Below are positions 29,239 through 35,656 of a stretch of DNA of 64,000 nucleotides, piece after piece. Below the pieces are notes generated by a model, which was not told the origin of the DNA, ran no database searches, and saw only the letters and a program-made list of their open reading frames with translations. The DNA is from Holophagae bacterium (GTDB taxonomy: Bacteria; Acidobacteriota; Thermoanaerobaculia; Thermoanaerobaculales; Thermoanaerobaculaceae). The stretch lies in contig JAAYVZ010000041.1 in NCBI GenBank assembly GCA_012516935.1, positions 1 to 64,000 of the forward strand. Reading direction: 5' to 3'. The position numbers and the translations under genes were made by a program. Numbering within the stretch: the first letter of the stretch is position 1; each line of letters opens with the position of its first letter.

Positions 29239-29745
29239 TCACGATCGACCGGTCGGACCCCAGGGGCCGACCGGGTGGCAGGGCTGAGCGGCCGGGTCGA
29301 GGGCGGCGAGGAGCGCAGCGAGCGGGCGGCGCAGGCGCGGGTGGGTCCACGCAGGGACGAGCTCACAGGCGGGTAGCAAGGCGAAACGCCGCTCGGCAAG
29401 ACGAGGGTGCGGCAGCGTGAGGTCGGGTGACAGGACGACCAAGCCTGGCGCGATCAGGAGATCGAGGTCGATCGATCGGGGGCCCCAGCGGGGTTCGCGG
29501 GTGCGGTTGCGACCGGCGGCGTGCTCGAGCTCGTGGCACCGCCGGAGCAGCGCCTGAGGCGTGGTTCGCAGCTCGATCAGCACCGCAGCGTTGAGGTAGT
29601 CGGGCTGCGGCGGGCCGATGGCGGCGCTGCGCCAGAGGCGGGAGATCGCCACCACGGGATGCTCTGCGCCGAGAGCCGAGAGCGTGCCCGCGAACGTCGC
29701 CGCGACATCGCCCTGATTGCCGCCGAAGCCGAGCAGGAGCTGCGT
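29239..29745 (-). CDS. folK: HPPK (folate pyrophosphokinase), apparent ACG start
   Basis: 2-Amino-4-hydroxy-6-hydroxymethyldihydropteridine pyrophosphokinase, transferring pyrophosphate from ATP in folate synthesis. The frame encodes QLLLGFGGNQGDVAATF (family GxGxNxGD), then PQPDYLNAAV, EPRWGPRSIDLDLLI and LPHPRLAERRFALLP, all HPPK signatures. No ATG, GTG or TTG exists in frame ahead of the GFGGNQGD motif; the first GTG (29655) would delete it. ACG at 29745 lies 7 nt after GGGAGGG and would give a normal 168-residue protein, so a rare ACG start (or a sequencing error for ATG) is the best reading. It converges on the acyl-CoA synthetase gene. Confidence 0.8.
   Translation of the reverse strand, partial: TQLLLGFGGNQGDVAATFAGTLSALGAEHPVVAISRLWRSAAIGPPQPDYLNAAVLIELRTTPQALLRRCHELEHAAGRNRTREPRWGPRSIDLDLLIAPGLVVLSPDLTLPHPRLAERRFALLPACELVPAWTHPRLRRPLAALLAALDPAAQPCHPVGPWGPTGRS
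29249..29274. terminator. Strong hairpin in the 3' end of folK
   Basis: CCGGTCGG (29249-29256) pairs with CCGACCGG (29267-29274), and CCCC/GGGG in between extends the stem with one bulged A. It lies 30 nt after the acyl-CoA synthetase stop, inside the end of convergent folK. No U tract. Confidence 0.45.
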
Positions 29746-29799
29746 TCGAAGGCCCTCCCGGCGGCATGATACGATGCCGGTGATCGGGGGGTGGCAGCG

Positions 29800-30300
29800 A
29801 TGAGCCAGGGGCTGGAGAAGGCGCAGGGCGCACGAACTTGGCTCGAGCGGTTGGGCGCTCGGGTTCCGGGATACCGGGGTTATCTCGAGCGGGAGCTGCG
29901 CCGTGAGGTGGACCAGATCCTGCGGGCCGAGTTGGCGGCGCGACTCGACCGGGCGCGCGCCAGCGTCCAGGCTTTCGCGCGCCGCCTACGACTCGATCAA
30001 CCCGGGGTGTTGCAACGGCTTGCCTCGGCGGAGAAGCGCATCGACGCTGTGGCCAACGCCCTGCGTCACGCCGGCTCGGGGTACGCGGGGCTGTTCGATG
30101 CGGCGAAGATCTACGAAGCGGAGCTCGAGAGCTTGTACCGTTTCGACCTCTCGCTGGTGGATGCGATCGATACCCTCGTGGCCACGGCTGCTGGTCTCGA
30201 CGGTGAGGCCGCCGTAGCTCGCCTCGAGGGTCAGCTCGAGGGCCTGGCCACCCAAGTCGACAGCCGCAGCACGGTCGTCAGGAGCATGCTCGGCGCCTGA
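29800..30300 (+). CDS. Uncharacterised helical protein, partner of SPFH gene
   Basis: About 166 residues with no family I can name. It looks all-helical and soluble: charged amphipathic stretches (YLERELRREVDQILRAELAARLDRARASV; SAEKRIDAVANALRHAGSG), no signal peptide, no Cys, no metal motif. ATG 29800 was chosen after a G-rich stretch; an in-frame GTG at 29791 is possible. It lies 11 nt before the SPFH/zinc-ribbon gene, so the two are almost certainly co-transcribed and may act together. A possible -10, TACGAT (29770-29775), sits inside a short palindrome and overlaps the folK 5' region. Confidence 0.6.
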   Translation: MSQGLEKAQGARTWLERLGARVPGYRGYLERELRREVDQILRAELAARLDRARASVQAFARRLRLDQPGVLQRLASAEKRIDAVANALRHAGSGYAGLFDAAKIYEAELESLYRFDLSLVDAIDTLVATAAGLDGEAAVARLEGQLEGLATQVDSRSTVVRSMLGA

Positions 30301-30311
30301 GGGAGGATGGC

Positions 30312-31361
30312 ATGAGTCAGTTCCTGGAGACCATCGAGCACTACGACCCGTCGGGCCAGGAAATCGCCTTTCGCTTTCCGCCCGAGGGAAGCGCCGAGGT
30401 CAAGCTGGGGGCCCAGCTCATCGTCCACGAGGCGCAGGAGGCGGTGTTTTACAGGGATGGTCGGGCGTTGGATGTGTTCGGCCCTGGACGCCACACCCTG
30501 ACGACGCAGAACATTCCGTTGGTGACGAAGCTGCTGGCTGCGCCGTTCGGCTTTGCGTCGCCGTTCCGGGTGCAGGTCGTATTCGTGTCCAAACGCACCT
30601 TTCTGGACCAGAAATGGGGGACGCGGGAACCGGTGGTGTTTCGTGACCGCGAGCTCGGGGTGGTGCGGCTGCGGGCGTTCGGGACGTACGCCTACCGTAT
30701 TCGTGATGCGCGGGTGTTCGTCAACACGGTGGTCGGCTCTTCAGGGCAGCTCGACACCGCCCGGCTGGAGGACTTCTACCGCGATATGGTCATCTCGCGG
30801 CTCAACGACTTGCTGGGGGAGAACCTGACCTCGGTGTTGGACCTGCCGGCCTCGTACGATGAGCTTGCCGCTCTCGCCAAGGCGAGGTTGAGCGAGGATT
30901 TCGGCAAGTACGGTGTCGATCTCACGGACTTCTACGTCAACTCCATCACGCCCCCGGACGAGGTGCTGCAGCGTATCGATGAGCGTGCCTCGATGGGGGC
31001 GGTCGGCGACCTCGCGGCCTACACACGGTTCAAGGCCGCCGTAGCCCTGGGCGACGCGGCCAAAGCGAACGGCGGTGGAGGCGCTGCCGGTGCCGGGTTG
31101 GGCGTGGGGCTGGGCGCCGGCTTCGGCGTGCAGATGGCCGGAGCCCTCGGCGAGGCGTTGCGTGGTGGAGCGGCCCCGGCGGCGGGCGGCGCCGGAGCGG
31201 CGGCCGGTAGCTTCTGCCCCCATTGCGGCGACGGCCTGCCTGCCGGAGCGCGGTTCTGCCCTGGCTGCGGCACACCGTTGGGGGGTACCCTTTGCGCCAA
31301 GTGCAGGCAGGTACTCCCCTCGGGCGCGCGCTTTTGTCCTGGCTGCGGCACCCAGACCTAG
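30312..31361 (+). CDS. SPFH/band-7 domain protein with two C-terminal zinc ribbons
   Basis: A 349-residue protein. Residues about 20-240 form an SPFH-like (virion-core-protein-like) domain: LIVHEAQEAVFYRDGRAL, FGPGRHTLTTQNIPL, and helical VDLTDFYVNSITPPDEVLQRIDER. A Gly/Ala-rich flexible region follows, then two zinc ribbons CPHCG...FCPGCG and CAKC...FCPGCG, eight Cys in all. Similar proteins (YdjI-like) are membrane-associated scaffolds linked to membrane stress in Bacillus. There is no membrane segment of its own beyond the Gly/Ala stretch. GGGAGG precedes ATG 30312. It is paired with the helical protein upstream. Confidence 0.8.
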   Translation: MSQFLETIEHYDPSGQEIAFRFPPEGSAEVKLGAQLIVHEAQEAVFYRDGRALDVFGPGRHTLTTQNIPLVTKLLAAPFGFASPFRVQVVFVSKRTFLDQKWGTREPVVFRDRELGVVRLRAFGTYAYRIRDARVFVNTVVGSSGQLDTARLEDFYRDMVISRLNDLLGENLTSVLDLPASYDELAALAKARLSEDFGKYGVDLTDFYVNSITPPDEVLQRIDERASMGAVGDLAAYTRFKAAVALGDAAKANGGGGAAGAGLGVGLGAGFGVQMAGALGEALRGGAAPAAGGAGAAAGSFCPHCGDGLPAGARFCPGCGTPLGGTLCAKCRQVLPSGARFCPGCGTQT

Positions 31362-31451: not shown

Positions 31452-32045
31452 TCACGACATCTTCGGGGTCGGAAACGGGATCGGGTCATCTTCCTCGGGG
31501 AAGAGTGGGGGCATCGGGCAGACGATGGGCTCGAGACGAGCCATCACCACCTGCCCCCAGCGGCTCGGTTCGTGGCCGGTGAGATCGAGACAGGCGAGCC
31601 CCCGCTGGCGCATCTGCAGGTCGATGAGCTGGTCGATGGCGCGCTGGAACACGAGGTCCACGTCGCGCACCCCGTCCCACCGTGGGGCACTCCATAGCGG
31701 CACCTTGACCAGCAGGTCATAGGTCAGTAGCCAGCGGGAGAGGAGCGGCTCCCAGGCAGGCTGGGGGCCGGTTGCGTGGACCAGGTAGCAGTAGTTGTCG
31801 AGCACCGAGCGGTCACAGATGACCACCTGATGGTCGGCCTCCGCTTGGATCTCCCAGGCCATCTGGGTGTGCAAGATCCACGACTGGGCGGCGAGGCTGG
31901 TCTCGCGGTTGATCGGCAGGGGGCAGCGCCGGGCCACCTCCTGCACCATCTCGACGTTGACATCGCGCCGCTTGAGACGTGCAGCGAGCTCGTAGCACAG
32001 CGTCGTCTTGCCAACGCCGTGGGTGCCGATCAGGGCGACCTTCAT
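31452..32045 (-). CDS. NadR/Ttd14-like P-loop NTPase
   Basis: A 197-residue P-loop protein: Walker A GTHGVGKTT near residue 7, a second conserved VICDRSVLDNYCY block (residues about 74-87), as in the NadR-kinase/Ttd14-like AAA_28 group that includes nucleoside/nicotinamide-riboside kinases. Substrate is unknown. Its ATG overlaps the stop of the upstream Ser/Thr kinase gene by 4 nt, so the two are translationally coupled, which suggests it is a partner or output of that kinase (inference). It converges on the SPFH gene. Confidence 0.7.
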   Translation of the reverse strand: MKVALIGTHGVGKTTLCYELAARLKRRDVNVEMVQEVARRCPLPINRETSLAAQSWILHTQMAWEIQAEADHQVVICDRSVLDNYCYLVHATGPQPAWEPLLSRWLLTYDLLVKVPLWSAPRWDGVRDVDLVFQRAIDQLIDLQMRQRGLACLDLTGHEPSRWGQVVMARLEPIVCPMPPLFPEEDDPIPFPTPKMS

Positions 32046-34537
32046 CCCGCCTCCCCGTTCTCGCCGAGCCCGGCGAGGGCGGCGACGAGGGCGCTCCCGT
32101 CGCGCGGTCTCTGGGAGGGCTGTTTGGCCAGGCAGGCGAGGATGAGCTGGCTGGTCCCCGGGTCGAGGTCTGGGGCGAGGGATGTCGGGTCGGGCGGGGC
32201 CAGCTCCAAGTGGGCCTTGATGATGTTCCCCTCGGTGAACGGTAAGCGGCCGGTGGCGAGCTGGAAGAAGGTGACACCGAGGGCGTACACATCGCTCCGC
32301 TCGTCGGGGTTCTCGCCCATGAGCTGCTCCGGTGCCATGAAGTAGGGCGTTCCCGCAGCACCCGACGCGGACTTTTCCGCGTCGCCGAGACGGCGGGCGA
32401 TGCCGAAGTCCAGGATCTTGATCTGCCGCCGGTCGGTCAGGATCATGTTGGCGGGCTTGAGGTCGCGGTGCACGACGCGGGCTGCGTGAGCGTATGCCAC
32501 CGCGTCGGCGATCTGTCGCATGAAGCTGAGTAGGCGGAGCCGCACGAACAACGGTTCCTCGCTCAGGAGCTGGTTGAGCGTCGGTCCGGACACGAACTCC
32601 ATCGAGATGTAGAACGACCCGAACCCACGGTCGAAGTCATAGATGTGAACGATCCCCGGGTGGGAGAGGGCAGCGGCGGCTCGCGCCTCCCGCTCGAAGC
32701 GCCGGAAAGCCTCGGGAGTGTGTTGACGCTCGTTGAGGATCTTGATCGCTACGTCCCGGTCGAGGCGGTTGTCATGGGCCTTGAAGACGACGCCCATGCC
32801 GCCCCGCCCCAGCTCCTTCGTAATCGTGTAGCGGGACGAGGCGTCGCTCGCCAGCGGCTCCGCCGACCCCGGTACCGGTGTGAGACCACCCGACGACTGG
32901 AGCTGCTCGATCGTCTGTCGCTGCATCTTGACGGTCTGGAGGCGCTTCGCGGCGTCCTCGTACGAGTAGTCGAAGTCGACGATTTTCTGCCAGGCGGACT
33001 CGGCCCCCTTGAGATCGCCCTGCTGCTCGAGGAGGTGGGCCAGGGTGTAAAACGCCGGGAGCAGCTCGCGCCGAACCGCTTGGTCGCTGGTCGCTCGCTG
33101 TACGGCACCGATGGCGGTGGGAAGGTCGACCTCGCGGGCGAGCCACACGGCGAGCTTCGACAGCGGCTCGGCCAGTGACGGGACGTTGGCCGAGCTGCCT
33201 GCGAGCATCTCCCACGCTGCCTTGAGCTCACCGGCGTCGAAGAGGACCGAGAAGCCGTCCTCGACTCGGCCCTGACGGGCGAGGAAGCTCGCCAGCTCGA
33301 GGTGCTGGCCGGAGCTGCCGAGGAGCTGCTCGGCACGGGCCAGGTCGCCAGCCCGTTCGAAGCACCGCGCGGCCTCGAGATAGCTCCCGGCCCGCTCCCA
33401 GATGAGGCCGGCTTCATCCCACTCGCCGATCGAGCACAGCAGCTCGGTCGCCTCGTTCTTGTCAGGGATGCGCGAGGCGGCCTCGGCGGCCTCGCGCAGC
33501 ATGCCCGCCTCGCAGAAGCGCTCGAACGCCTCGTGGAAGCGACCGAGCTCGACCAGAACGGCAGCCGCTTCGGCGGGCATCCGCGTCACCTCGAAAAGAT
33601 GAGCGGCCTCCTCGAGGTGGCCCTCCTCATGCAGGCGTTGGGCGCGCAACCGGGCAGCCTGATCGTCCTTACCAGCGACCTGGAGGGCCTCGGCGGCGCG
33701 CGAAAACTCTCCAGAGGACTGGAACGCCTTCGCGGCCTCCTCGGGCTGGTGGGCCGCCAGCAGCAGGTCGCCAGCCTCCGTGAAGCGTCCTGCCGCCATG
33801 GCCACCTGGGCGGCGAGCTGAGGTCGTCCGGCCTCGCGCGCGGCGCGCAAAGCAACATCGACCGAGCTTATCGAAAGACGCTTCGCTTTCACGGCCATCT
33901 CGACCGCGTTGGCAGCGCGCCGGGCGTCGCCTGCCCGCACGAAGACCTCGATCGCTGTTTCTGCCTTGTTGTGCTCGATCAGGTAGGTGCCGTAGCGCAG
34001 CCAGAGCTGCAGCGCCAGCTCCTCGTTGCCCTGGCGGGAGGCGAGCGATGCGGCGATGGCGAGGCTCTCGCCGCCTTCCTTCTGGTAGTAGGCGAGCGCG
34101 GCGTTGATGCGGCCGAGGTTGCGCGCGACCTCTCCGGCCCGGCCCCACACCCGGCCCCGCCGGAACGCCCGCAGCGCCCGTCGCTGGTAGCCGGCCTCGA
34201 GCCAGAACTCGCCGGCAGCGCGATGGTCACGACGACGGGCGGCGCGGACGGCGAGGTCGGTGGCTGAGCCGGGGCGGGGAGAGAGCAGCCCGAAGCCGAT
34301 CAGGGCGAGCAGCCCAGCAGTGATGTGCCCTGCGACCATGACGATCTCGGGTTTTGGCAGCAGGAGGAACGGGGGCAGCGGCTTGACGAGGGAGTCGAGG
34401 CCGAGAAACGACACGATCCACCAGAGGTTCAGCCAGATGACGAGTGAGGTGGCGAGCAGCGAAGCGCAGGATCGCAACCCGCGGGTGACGACGAGCGCGA
34501 ACAAGGGGAGGAGGAGCGCCTCGCCCAAGACCAGCAT
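32042..34537 (-). CDS. Membrane TPR protein with C-terminal Ser/Thr protein kinase
   Basis: An 831-residue protein with the usual bacterial order reversed. The N-terminus carries about three membrane segments (LLLPLFALVVT, LVIWLNLWWIVSFLGL, HITAGLLALIGFGLL). Then come about 430 residues of helical TPR-like repeats, and the Hanks-type kinase occupies about residues 562-825: glycine loop GRGGMGVVFKAHD, AIKIL lysine, HRDLKPANMIL catalytic loop, DFGIARRLG, APEQL, all intact. It should phosphorylate Ser/Thr on unknown targets from the cytoplasmic face. No PASTA domains, so it is not a wall sensor of the PknB type. Coupled by a 4-nt overlap to the P-loop NTPase gene and divergent from dnaJ. Confidence 0.9.
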   Translation of the reverse strand: MLVLGEALLLPLFALVVTRGLRSCASLLATSLVIWLNLWWIVSFLGLDSLVKPLPPFLLLPKPEIVMVAGHITAGLLALIGFGLLSPRPGSATDLAVRAARRRDHRAAGEFWLEAGYQRRALRAFRRGRVWGRAGEVARNLGRINAALAYYQKEGGESLAIAASLASRQGNEELALQLWLRYGTYLIEHNKAETAIEVFVRAGDARRAANAVEMAVKAKRLSISSVDVALRAAREAGRPQLAAQVAMAAGRFTEAGDLLLAAHQPEEAAKAFQSSGEFSRAAEALQVAGKDDQAARLRAQRLHEEGHLEEAAHLFEVTRMPAEAAAVLVELGRFHEAFERFCEAGMLREAAEAASRIPDKNEATELLCSIGEWDEAGLIWERAGSYLEAARCFERAGDLARAEQLLGSSGQHLELASFLARQGRVEDGFSVLFDAGELKAAWEMLAGSSANVPSLAEPLSKLAVWLAREVDLPTAIGAVQRATSDQAVRRELLPAFYTLAHLLEQQGDLKGAESAWQKIVDFDYSYEDAAKRLQTVKMQRQTIEQLQSSGGLTPVPGSAEPLASDASSRYTITKELGRGGMGVVFKAHDNRLDRDVAIKILNERQHTPEAFRRFEREARAAAALSHPGIVHIYDFDRGFGSFYISMEFVSGPTLNQLLSEEPLFVRLRLLSFMRQIADAVAYAHAARVVHRDLKPANMILTDRRQIKILDFGIARRLGDAEKSASGAAGTPYFMAPEQLMGENPDERSDVYALGVTFFQLATGRLPFTEGNIIKAHLELAPPDPTSLAPDLDPGTSQLILACLAKQPSQRPRDGSALVAALAGLGENGEAG

Positions 34538-34615
34538 GCGGGCATTCTAGCCACTTCTTCGCGGGTTCGCACGCCTTCCCGCAGCGATCCGGCCGACAAT
34601 GTGACGGGGCGCACC

Positions 34616-34645
34616 CTTGAAAGTTTACAAGAAGTCGCTCATATT
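34616..34645 (+). promoter_or_regulatory. Sigma-32-like heat-shock promoter of dnaJ-like gene
   Basis: CTTGAAA (34616-34622), 15-nt spacer, CTCATATT (34638-34645), close to the sigma-32 consensus CTTGAAA-N11-16-CCCCATNT. The same bases can also be read as a weak sigma-70 promoter (TTGAAA-N17-CATATT). The predicted start is about 25-30 nt before the gene. Confidence 0.5.
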
Positions 34646-34678: not shown

Positions 34679-35656
34679 ATGAAGGACCTCTACGAGGTGC
34701 TCAAAGTAGGGCGCGACGCCAGCCCAGAGGAGATCAAGAAGGCGTACCGCAAGCTGGCTCGGCGTTGCCATCCCGACGTCAATCCGCAGGACCCTCAGGC
34801 AGAGCAGAAGTTCCGCGAGATCCAGGAGGCCTATGCCGTGCTCTCGGATCCCGCCAAGAAGGCCCAGTACGACCGCTTCGGGACCGTGGACGAGGGCGAG
34901 GTGGCGACGCGGAGCACTCGCGCGTGGCGAGGGCGTGGCGGGTCGCGGGTGAATGTTGGCTTCGGTGGTTTCTCCGGCTTCCCGGATCTCGGCGACCTCT
35001 TCGGGGACCTGTTTCGGCGAGGTGGTGGTCCCGCTCAGCCGCCCCCAGCCCCGCCCGAGGCGACGGTCGAGCTCGAGCTCGTCGATGCTGTCAAGGGAAC
35101 GTCGGTCGTGGTGGCGCTGCGGCGGGAGGTCGAGTGCGGGGCGTGCCAGGGGCGGGGAAACGACGGCGAGCGGACCTGTTCCCGGTGCCATGGGAGCGGC
35201 CAGCTCATCCACACCGACCGCGTGCGGGTACGAATTCCTGCCGGTGTGGCGGACGGAGACCGGGTGCGCGCTGCGGTTCGTTCCGTTCCGGGCGGTGAGG
35301 TGTCGGTGGCGATCAAGGTCAAGGCGCACCCTTTCTTCGAACGGCGAGGCGACGACATCCACACTACGGTGCCGATCACGTTCGCAGAGGCGATGGTCGG
35401 GGCGGAGATCGAAGTCGGGACCGTCGGCGGACCGGTGCGAGCCAAGATCCCAGCGGGAACCCAGTCGGGGCAGCGCTTCCGACTGCGAGGCAAGGGGGTC
35501 CGCAATGCCCGCACGGGTGTTCCCGGCGACCATTTCTATACCGTTCAGGTGGCGGTGCCGCGGGTGGTAACGCCAGGCGGGCGAGAGCTCGCCCGGCGGG
35601 TTGCCGAGCTGTACGCGGTCGATCCGCGCACCAGCCTACCCCTGAGCTTGACCTGA
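34679..35656 (+). CDS. DnaJ-family co-chaperone with a half zinc-finger
   Basis: A 325-residue Hsp40 that would stimulate DnaK. Order: J domain (residues 1-70, HPD in [13 protein letters not shown] end), Gly/Phe-rich region ([22 protein letters not shown]), zinc-finger part with only two CxxCxGxG motifs ([16 protein letters not shown]) where true DnaJ has four, then two C-terminal beta domains. It is thus between DnaJ and CbpA: one zinc site, not two. There is no dnaK or grpE beside it, so it is probably an accessory copy. ATG 34679 follows GGAG; a GTG 3 nt earlier is equivalent. Confidence 0.88.

Follow-up and report, generated by a model that had tools for sequence, protein, structure and literature searches.

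A membrane-anchored, kinase-last Ser/Thr protein kinase with a predicted 13-residue-repeat solenoid, and its lineage-specific overlap with a probable nucleoside kinase gene

The overlapping gene pair

Does the overlap between a gene for a protein kinase and a gene for a P-loop NTPase in an acidobacterial genome mark a kinase and its effector? The window analysed here is a stretch of 64,000 nucleotides from a Holophagae bacterium (contig JAAYVZ010000041.1), in which such a pair had been predicted, consisting of a membrane protein with a Hanks kinase at its C-terminus and a NadR/Ttd14-like NTPase. Both ORFs were borne out. The upstream gene (32042..34537, minus strand) encodes, as judged from the ORF, Pfam, an alignment and a structural model, a membrane-anchored, kinase-last Ser/Thr protein kinase of 831 aa (Pkinase, E = 4e-52, aa 570–811). 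The downstream gene (31452..32045, minus strand) encodes a P-loop NTPase of 197 aa (AAA_28, E = 2.5e-18), which according to Pfam and the model is NadR-RNK/TMK-like and probably a nucleoside kinase. The predicted 4-nt overlap of the two genes can be read directly in the sequence as ATGA (32042..32045, minus strand), which holds the kinase stop codon and the NTPase start codon and has the form RTGA in relatives. The anatomy first proposed is right except for the type of repeat, but the effector claim, taken as a general rule, is not supported by comparison with related genomes.

Architecture of the protein kinase

The PknB-like kinase domain (aa 570–811; 32105..32830, minus strand) was located by Pfam and by a structure match to PknB. 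Its catalytic motifs GRGGMG, VAIK, HRDLKPAN, DFG and APE are intact and common to the aligned relatives (24 sequences including that of the window), and the fold together with the VAIK lysine, HRD, DFG and APE assigns it to the Hanks-type Ser/Thr kinases. The model of the whole kinase was built with 23 sequences and had a mean pLDDT of 85.5; its best structural match was PknB (5u94; Z 31.7, rmsd 2.3, 253 residues aligned), with the match lists of this whole-protein search being filled by the kinase domain.

The N-terminal membrane part (aa 1–86; 34280..34537, minus strand) consists of two to three helices by hydropathy and in the model, where residues 1–19 are of low confidence (pLDDT below 50). 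Three helices, the number originally predicted, were found by hydropathy in the window protein but in only 9 of the 24 aligned sequences, while 14 showed two and one showed a single helix. The C-terminal position of the kinase domain, also part of the original prediction, was assessed against the genome's 28 Pkinase matches, of which 23 were placed in frames (22 and that of the window). Since 3 of the 23 have at least 350 residues before the domain, the kinase-last layout is uncommon yet not unique. By sequence and model, then, this is a PknB-type Ser/Thr kinase domain that ends a membrane-anchored protein and follows a long alpha-solenoid of 13-residue repeats.

PASTA kinases have an N-terminal kinase domain, a transmembrane segment and extracellular PASTA repeats. 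The window kinase resembles PknB, PknA and other Hanks-type bacterial Ser/Thr kinases in fold and catalytic motifs but differs from PknB and PknA in that its kinase domain is C-terminal and follows the membrane part and a solenoid that looks cytoplasmic. The Pfam search revealed neither PASTA repeats nor any other external sensor domain in it, and the PASTA kinase model PknB_PASTA_kin (NF033483) matched the kinase region only, with 273.5 bits against a cut-off of 450 bits.

Kinase models of PADLOC also match the protein (aa 545–826, best E 3.8e-77), which raises the question of a defence role against phage as a PD-T4-6- or MADS-type kinase. We consider such a role very improbable, since the matches shown are confined to the kinase end, the NTPase and the DnaJ-like protein encoded next to the kinase are unmatched in PADLOC, and the neighbourhood, with folK, dnaJ and accBC-type genes, is stable.

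The 13-residue repeat of the solenoid

The region between the membrane part and the kinase domain is predicted by the model, autocorrelation and profiles to form an alpha-solenoid (aa 92–548; 32894..34264, minus strand), with one-helix repeats of 13 residues from aa 92 to about aa 446 and longer helices thereafter. In the predicted structure, the helices are short and many of them start exactly 13 residues apart. Autocorrelation of aa 91–548 gave peaks at lags 13, 26 and 39 (z 6.4, 5.8 and 5.0), and the repeat unit reads roughly A-G-x-x-x-E-A-A-x-L-L-x-R. Canonical TPRs are two-helix repeats of 34 residues. Autocorrelation showed nothing at 34–36 residues, the whole protein having a z of 0.3 at lag 34, and a canonical TPR protein was therefore rejected; the repeats that had been called TPR-like have a period of 13 residues instead. 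Among 501 called genes of at least 250 aa in the loci compared, a z above 4.5 at lag 13 was obtained for 13, all 13 being members or relatives of this kinase; 8 further family members in these loci stay under that value.

With the full-length protein, only TPR_GEMI5 (PF23774) scored above its Pfam cut-off, TPR_1, TPR_2 and TPR_8 remaining under theirs, though not far from them; when the search was restricted to the solenoid, the summed scores of TPR_2 and TPR_1 passed as well, with no single stretch passing. TPR_GEMI5 matched 19 of the 23 members of the kinase family. When a profile of 23 relatives was compared with the PDB, IFT172 (E 1.1e-17), IFT144 (E 6.1e-13) and IFT122 ranked above designed TPRs. 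In profile, the solenoid resembles those of IFT172, IFT144, IFT122, WDR35 and Gemin5, and part of the matched stretch of IFT172, read by eye, steps by 13 residues as the kinase solenoid does. The best IFT172 domain scored 45.3 bits with a bias correction of 32.5 bits, composition bias being high, and because of this large correction common descent with the IFT proteins is not claimed. Unlike the IFT and Gemin5 proteins, the window kinase has no WD40 propeller match and no trafficking context, and the resemblance to IFT172-type solenoids is likely to reflect convergence. The single solenoid sequence gave no significant match among solved structures; a canonical TPR protein of the window, likewise used as a single sequence without a profile, matched designed TPRs but none of the IFT proteins. 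In a sample of 396 genomes of the phylum, 11 had a match to the solenoid profile at E ≤ 1e-25, 9 of them in the window's order and 2, with partial matches, outside it.

The actinobacterial kinase PknG combines its catalytic domain with a scaffold of helical repeats connecting signal, membrane and substrate, and its TPR domain has been proposed to link a membrane protein with the choice of substrate (PMC8546545). PknG and the window protein share this combination of kinase and scaffold, but in PknG the kinase precedes the TPRs, whereas in the window protein the order is reversed, with the kinase following the solenoid. In addition, PknG reaches the membrane via a separate protein, GlnX, whereas the window kinase has a built-in anchor and repeats of 13 residues. 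With its membrane part, 13-residue solenoid and kinase in last position, this Ser/Thr kinase family has an unusual build, and it would represent a one-protein version of the PknG–GlnX arrangement should its solenoid prove to be a docking scaffold. In the literature searched on the architecture, the lineage and the NTPase, neither protein was named in titles or abstract openings.

The P-loop NTPase and its gene neighbours

The NadR-like assignment first given to the NTPase is supported by fold comparison. Its model (pLDDT 91.2) was closest to the ribosylnicotinamide-kinase (RNK) domain of NadR (8x7f; Z 21.4, rmsd 2.1, 172 residues aligned), followed by thymidylate kinases (Z about 17), although thymidylate kinases top the matches when these are ranked by Foldseek E-value alone. 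The fold and the Walker A motif are those of P-loop nucleoside/nucleotide kinases, and 32 positions are invariant across 50 sequences; the closest named relative, with 84% identity, is from a Thermoanaerobaculaceae MAG. The NTPase is like the NadR RNK domain in fold and Walker A, but shares only 14% identity with it and differs from whole NadR in being a single domain that lacks the NMN adenylyltransferase domain. Against the NadR equivalog model it scored 17 bits, with a cut-off of 341.15.

Neighbours of the NTPase gene were surveyed in 80 loci of relatives and related genomes: i) a uridine phosphorylase gene lies directly downstream in two loci (L051 and L057, above curated cut-offs); ii) a NadA gene lies directly upstream in L038, and the same cluster occurs in L039; iii) in Holophagae-type loci, a phosphoglycerate mutase gene is upstream; iv) in some Eisenbacteria loci, the neighbour is an iron-type transporter; and v) in the sister family of the window's family, the NTPase gene is beside those for a TIGR00730 protein and a 5'-deoxyadenosine-deaminase-like enzyme (both scores below curated cut-offs), often with a 4-nt overlap. 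As these neighbours include genes of nucleoside metabolism, the earlier statement that the pair stands outside known pathways probably does not hold for the NTPase. The model and the neighbouring genes suggest that it is a putative nucleoside-type kinase.

In the window, a LIMLP_15305-like gene (under the cut-off) and an SPFH/Band_7 gene with a double zinc ribbon (29791–31361, plus strand) adjoin the NTPase gene, as they do in several relatives. The FolK (HPPK) frame (29239–29655, minus strand) has 138 aa as against 164–196 aa in most called relatives; its start may have been mis-set or the gene shortened. In one Gemmatimonadetes MAG (L058:1279-7502, L083:2758-5335), the next one or two genes after that of the NTPase, in the same orientation, encode large kinase-first proteins. 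This neighbourhood, seen in one genome, was set apart from the system described here.

Distribution of the pair and its proposed function

The distribution of the two genes was compared in the window's family (17 genomes), a sister family of the same order and the class (148 genomes). Within the window's family, the NTPase gene and the N-terminal part of the kinase occur in the same 12 genomes. The RTGA is present at the junction in all 12, and the kinase frame enters it in 11; in the remaining genome (G003), the assembled frame stops 62 nt short of it. The N-terminal parts of these kinases share 44–72% identity with that of the window. Among the family genomes without the pair, G016 (96% complete) has kept the orthologous dnaJ, with other genes at the place expected for the pair, whereas in G007 dnaJ is cut at a contig end and in G006, G011 and G013 only weaker dnaJ paralogs were found.

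Outside the family the two genes do not keep company in this way. In the class, the NTPase was found in 111 of the 148 genomes and the N-terminal part of the kinase in 49 (E ≤ 1e-8), the matches outside the order being weak; 65 of the 111 NTPase-bearing genomes had no match to this part at the same threshold (hand count), frequent occurrence of the NTPase without the kinase being one of the two observations first named as counting against the pair. In the sister family, both genes are on one contig in 8 of the 20 kinase-bearing genomes, where a stretch of 3.1–5.4 kb that includes dnaJ and other genes separates them. The prediction of a coupled kinase–NTPase pair therefore holds within the window's family and not beyond it, and a kinase–effector pair as a general rule was rejected. 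Since the genes are apart in the sister family and the NTPase often occurs without the kinase, the coupling is lineage-specific, and the wide occurrence of the NTPase without the kinase implies that its chemistry is independent of the latter. These comparisons indicate that the kinase family is real and conserved, with an unusual scaffold, and that its coupling to a probable nucleoside kinase is specific to one lineage.

We propose, with even confidence for and against, that in the window's family a solenoid-scaffolded membrane kinase is made together with a candidate partner that is a nucleoside salvage kinase. In this proposal, the membrane helices would hold the solenoid and the kinase domain at the membrane's inner surface, and the solenoid would act as a docking and sensing scaffold which brings partners to the kinase, a role like that of the PknG TPR domain. 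The P-loop protein would be a salvage kinase for a nucleoside (or nicotinamide riboside), and the 4-nt overlap would couple translation so that both proteins are produced together. In this family only, the P-loop protein counts as a candidate partner, or substrate, of the kinase because the two would be co-translated, and the kept overlap with a nucleoside-kinase-like gene provides a specific hypothesis for a candidate substrate. An older function of the kinase would be independent of adjacency to the NTPase and may have to do with the J-protein encoded next to it. The folds of kinase and NTPase, the solenoid, the nucleoside-related genes beside the NTPase in other genomes, the shared distribution, the kept RTGA overlap and the joint loss in G016 with retention of dnaJ favour the proposal, while the frequency of the NTPase without the kinase and the separation of the genes in the sister family argue against it. 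Moreover, the joint loss was seen once, in a single draft genome, and might be explained by one deletion of adjacent genes, and the variation of NTPase neighbours between phyla weakens any assignment of a substrate to the NTPase.

Almost as likely, at slightly under an even chance, is a simple operon arrangement, in which a housekeeping nucleoside kinase gene landed beside the protein kinase gene in the ancestor of the family, so that the two have transcription and translation in common but no signalling is involved. The class-wide excess of the NTPase over the kinase, the different NTPase neighbours elsewhere and the separate genes in the sister family are consistent with this explanation. 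It accounts less readily for an in-frame RTGA kept in 11 of 12 genomes despite the divergence of the kinase N-terminal parts, and for the absence of both genes from G016, where dnaJ is still present.

The dnaJ-like gene and promoter-like elements

A dnaJ-like gene (34679..35656, plus strand; DnaJ E 8e-28, DnaJ_C E 2.7e-35) is located head-to-head with the kinase gene. This arrangement was found in all 12 pair-bearing genomes of the window's family and, with the two genes directly head-to-head, in 12 of 13 sister-family loci (covering 13 of the 20 kinase-bearing genomes). A called ORF lies between kinase and dnaJ in the exception, L156, and L149 was counted by reading frame. The head-to-head arrangement is thus more widely kept than the coupling of kinase and NTPase. 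In the dnaJ-like protein, the DnaJ zinc-finger model matched over 30 residues only, below the curated cut-off, and some relatives have a second DnaJ-like protein elsewhere.

Its wide conservation makes the divergent J-protein a conceivable true partner of the kinase, which would then act in protein quality control as a membrane kinase whose solenoid docks chaperones. We regard this as rather unlikely: dnaJ and the 29-nt element preceding it survive in G016 without the kinase, so that dnaJ does not depend on it, the element and the kinase are on different contigs in G116 and G121, and a distant relative (L159) has no DnaJ match nearby. Less probable still, and in our opinion improbable, is that a kinase with a membrane-bound, coat-like (IFT/Gemin5-type) solenoid phosphorylates the nucleoside kinase encoded on the same message and thereby controls nucleoside/NAD salvage in step with the divergent J-protein.

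The conserved promoter-like element, CTTGAAA-N15-CTCATATT (29 nt; 34616..34645, plus strand), was recognized by searches in relatives. Its CTCATATT end was invariant in all 28 stretches compared, among which three genomes appear twice because they belong to two collections. A search of the order for a looser form detected it in 33 of 37 genomes, as a single copy in 32 and as two copies in one, and the backward control gave no match; it is absent from G006, G007, G011 and G013. Since the element remains in G016 without the kinase, it belongs to dnaJ. For a promoter it is unusually conserved, as is part of its spacer. The element resembles a sigma-32 promoter. With one mismatch allowed it has a single occurrence in the genome, and with three it matches 25 sites, versus 10 when the control was searched backward; a heat-shock regulon is not claimed.

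A TAGAAT box resembling a -10 element (34544..34549, minus strand), recognized by eye and similar in relatives, precedes the kinase gene, with its end 6 nt upstream of the start codon. A box so near the start suggests, at the sequence level, that the kinase message is leaderless.
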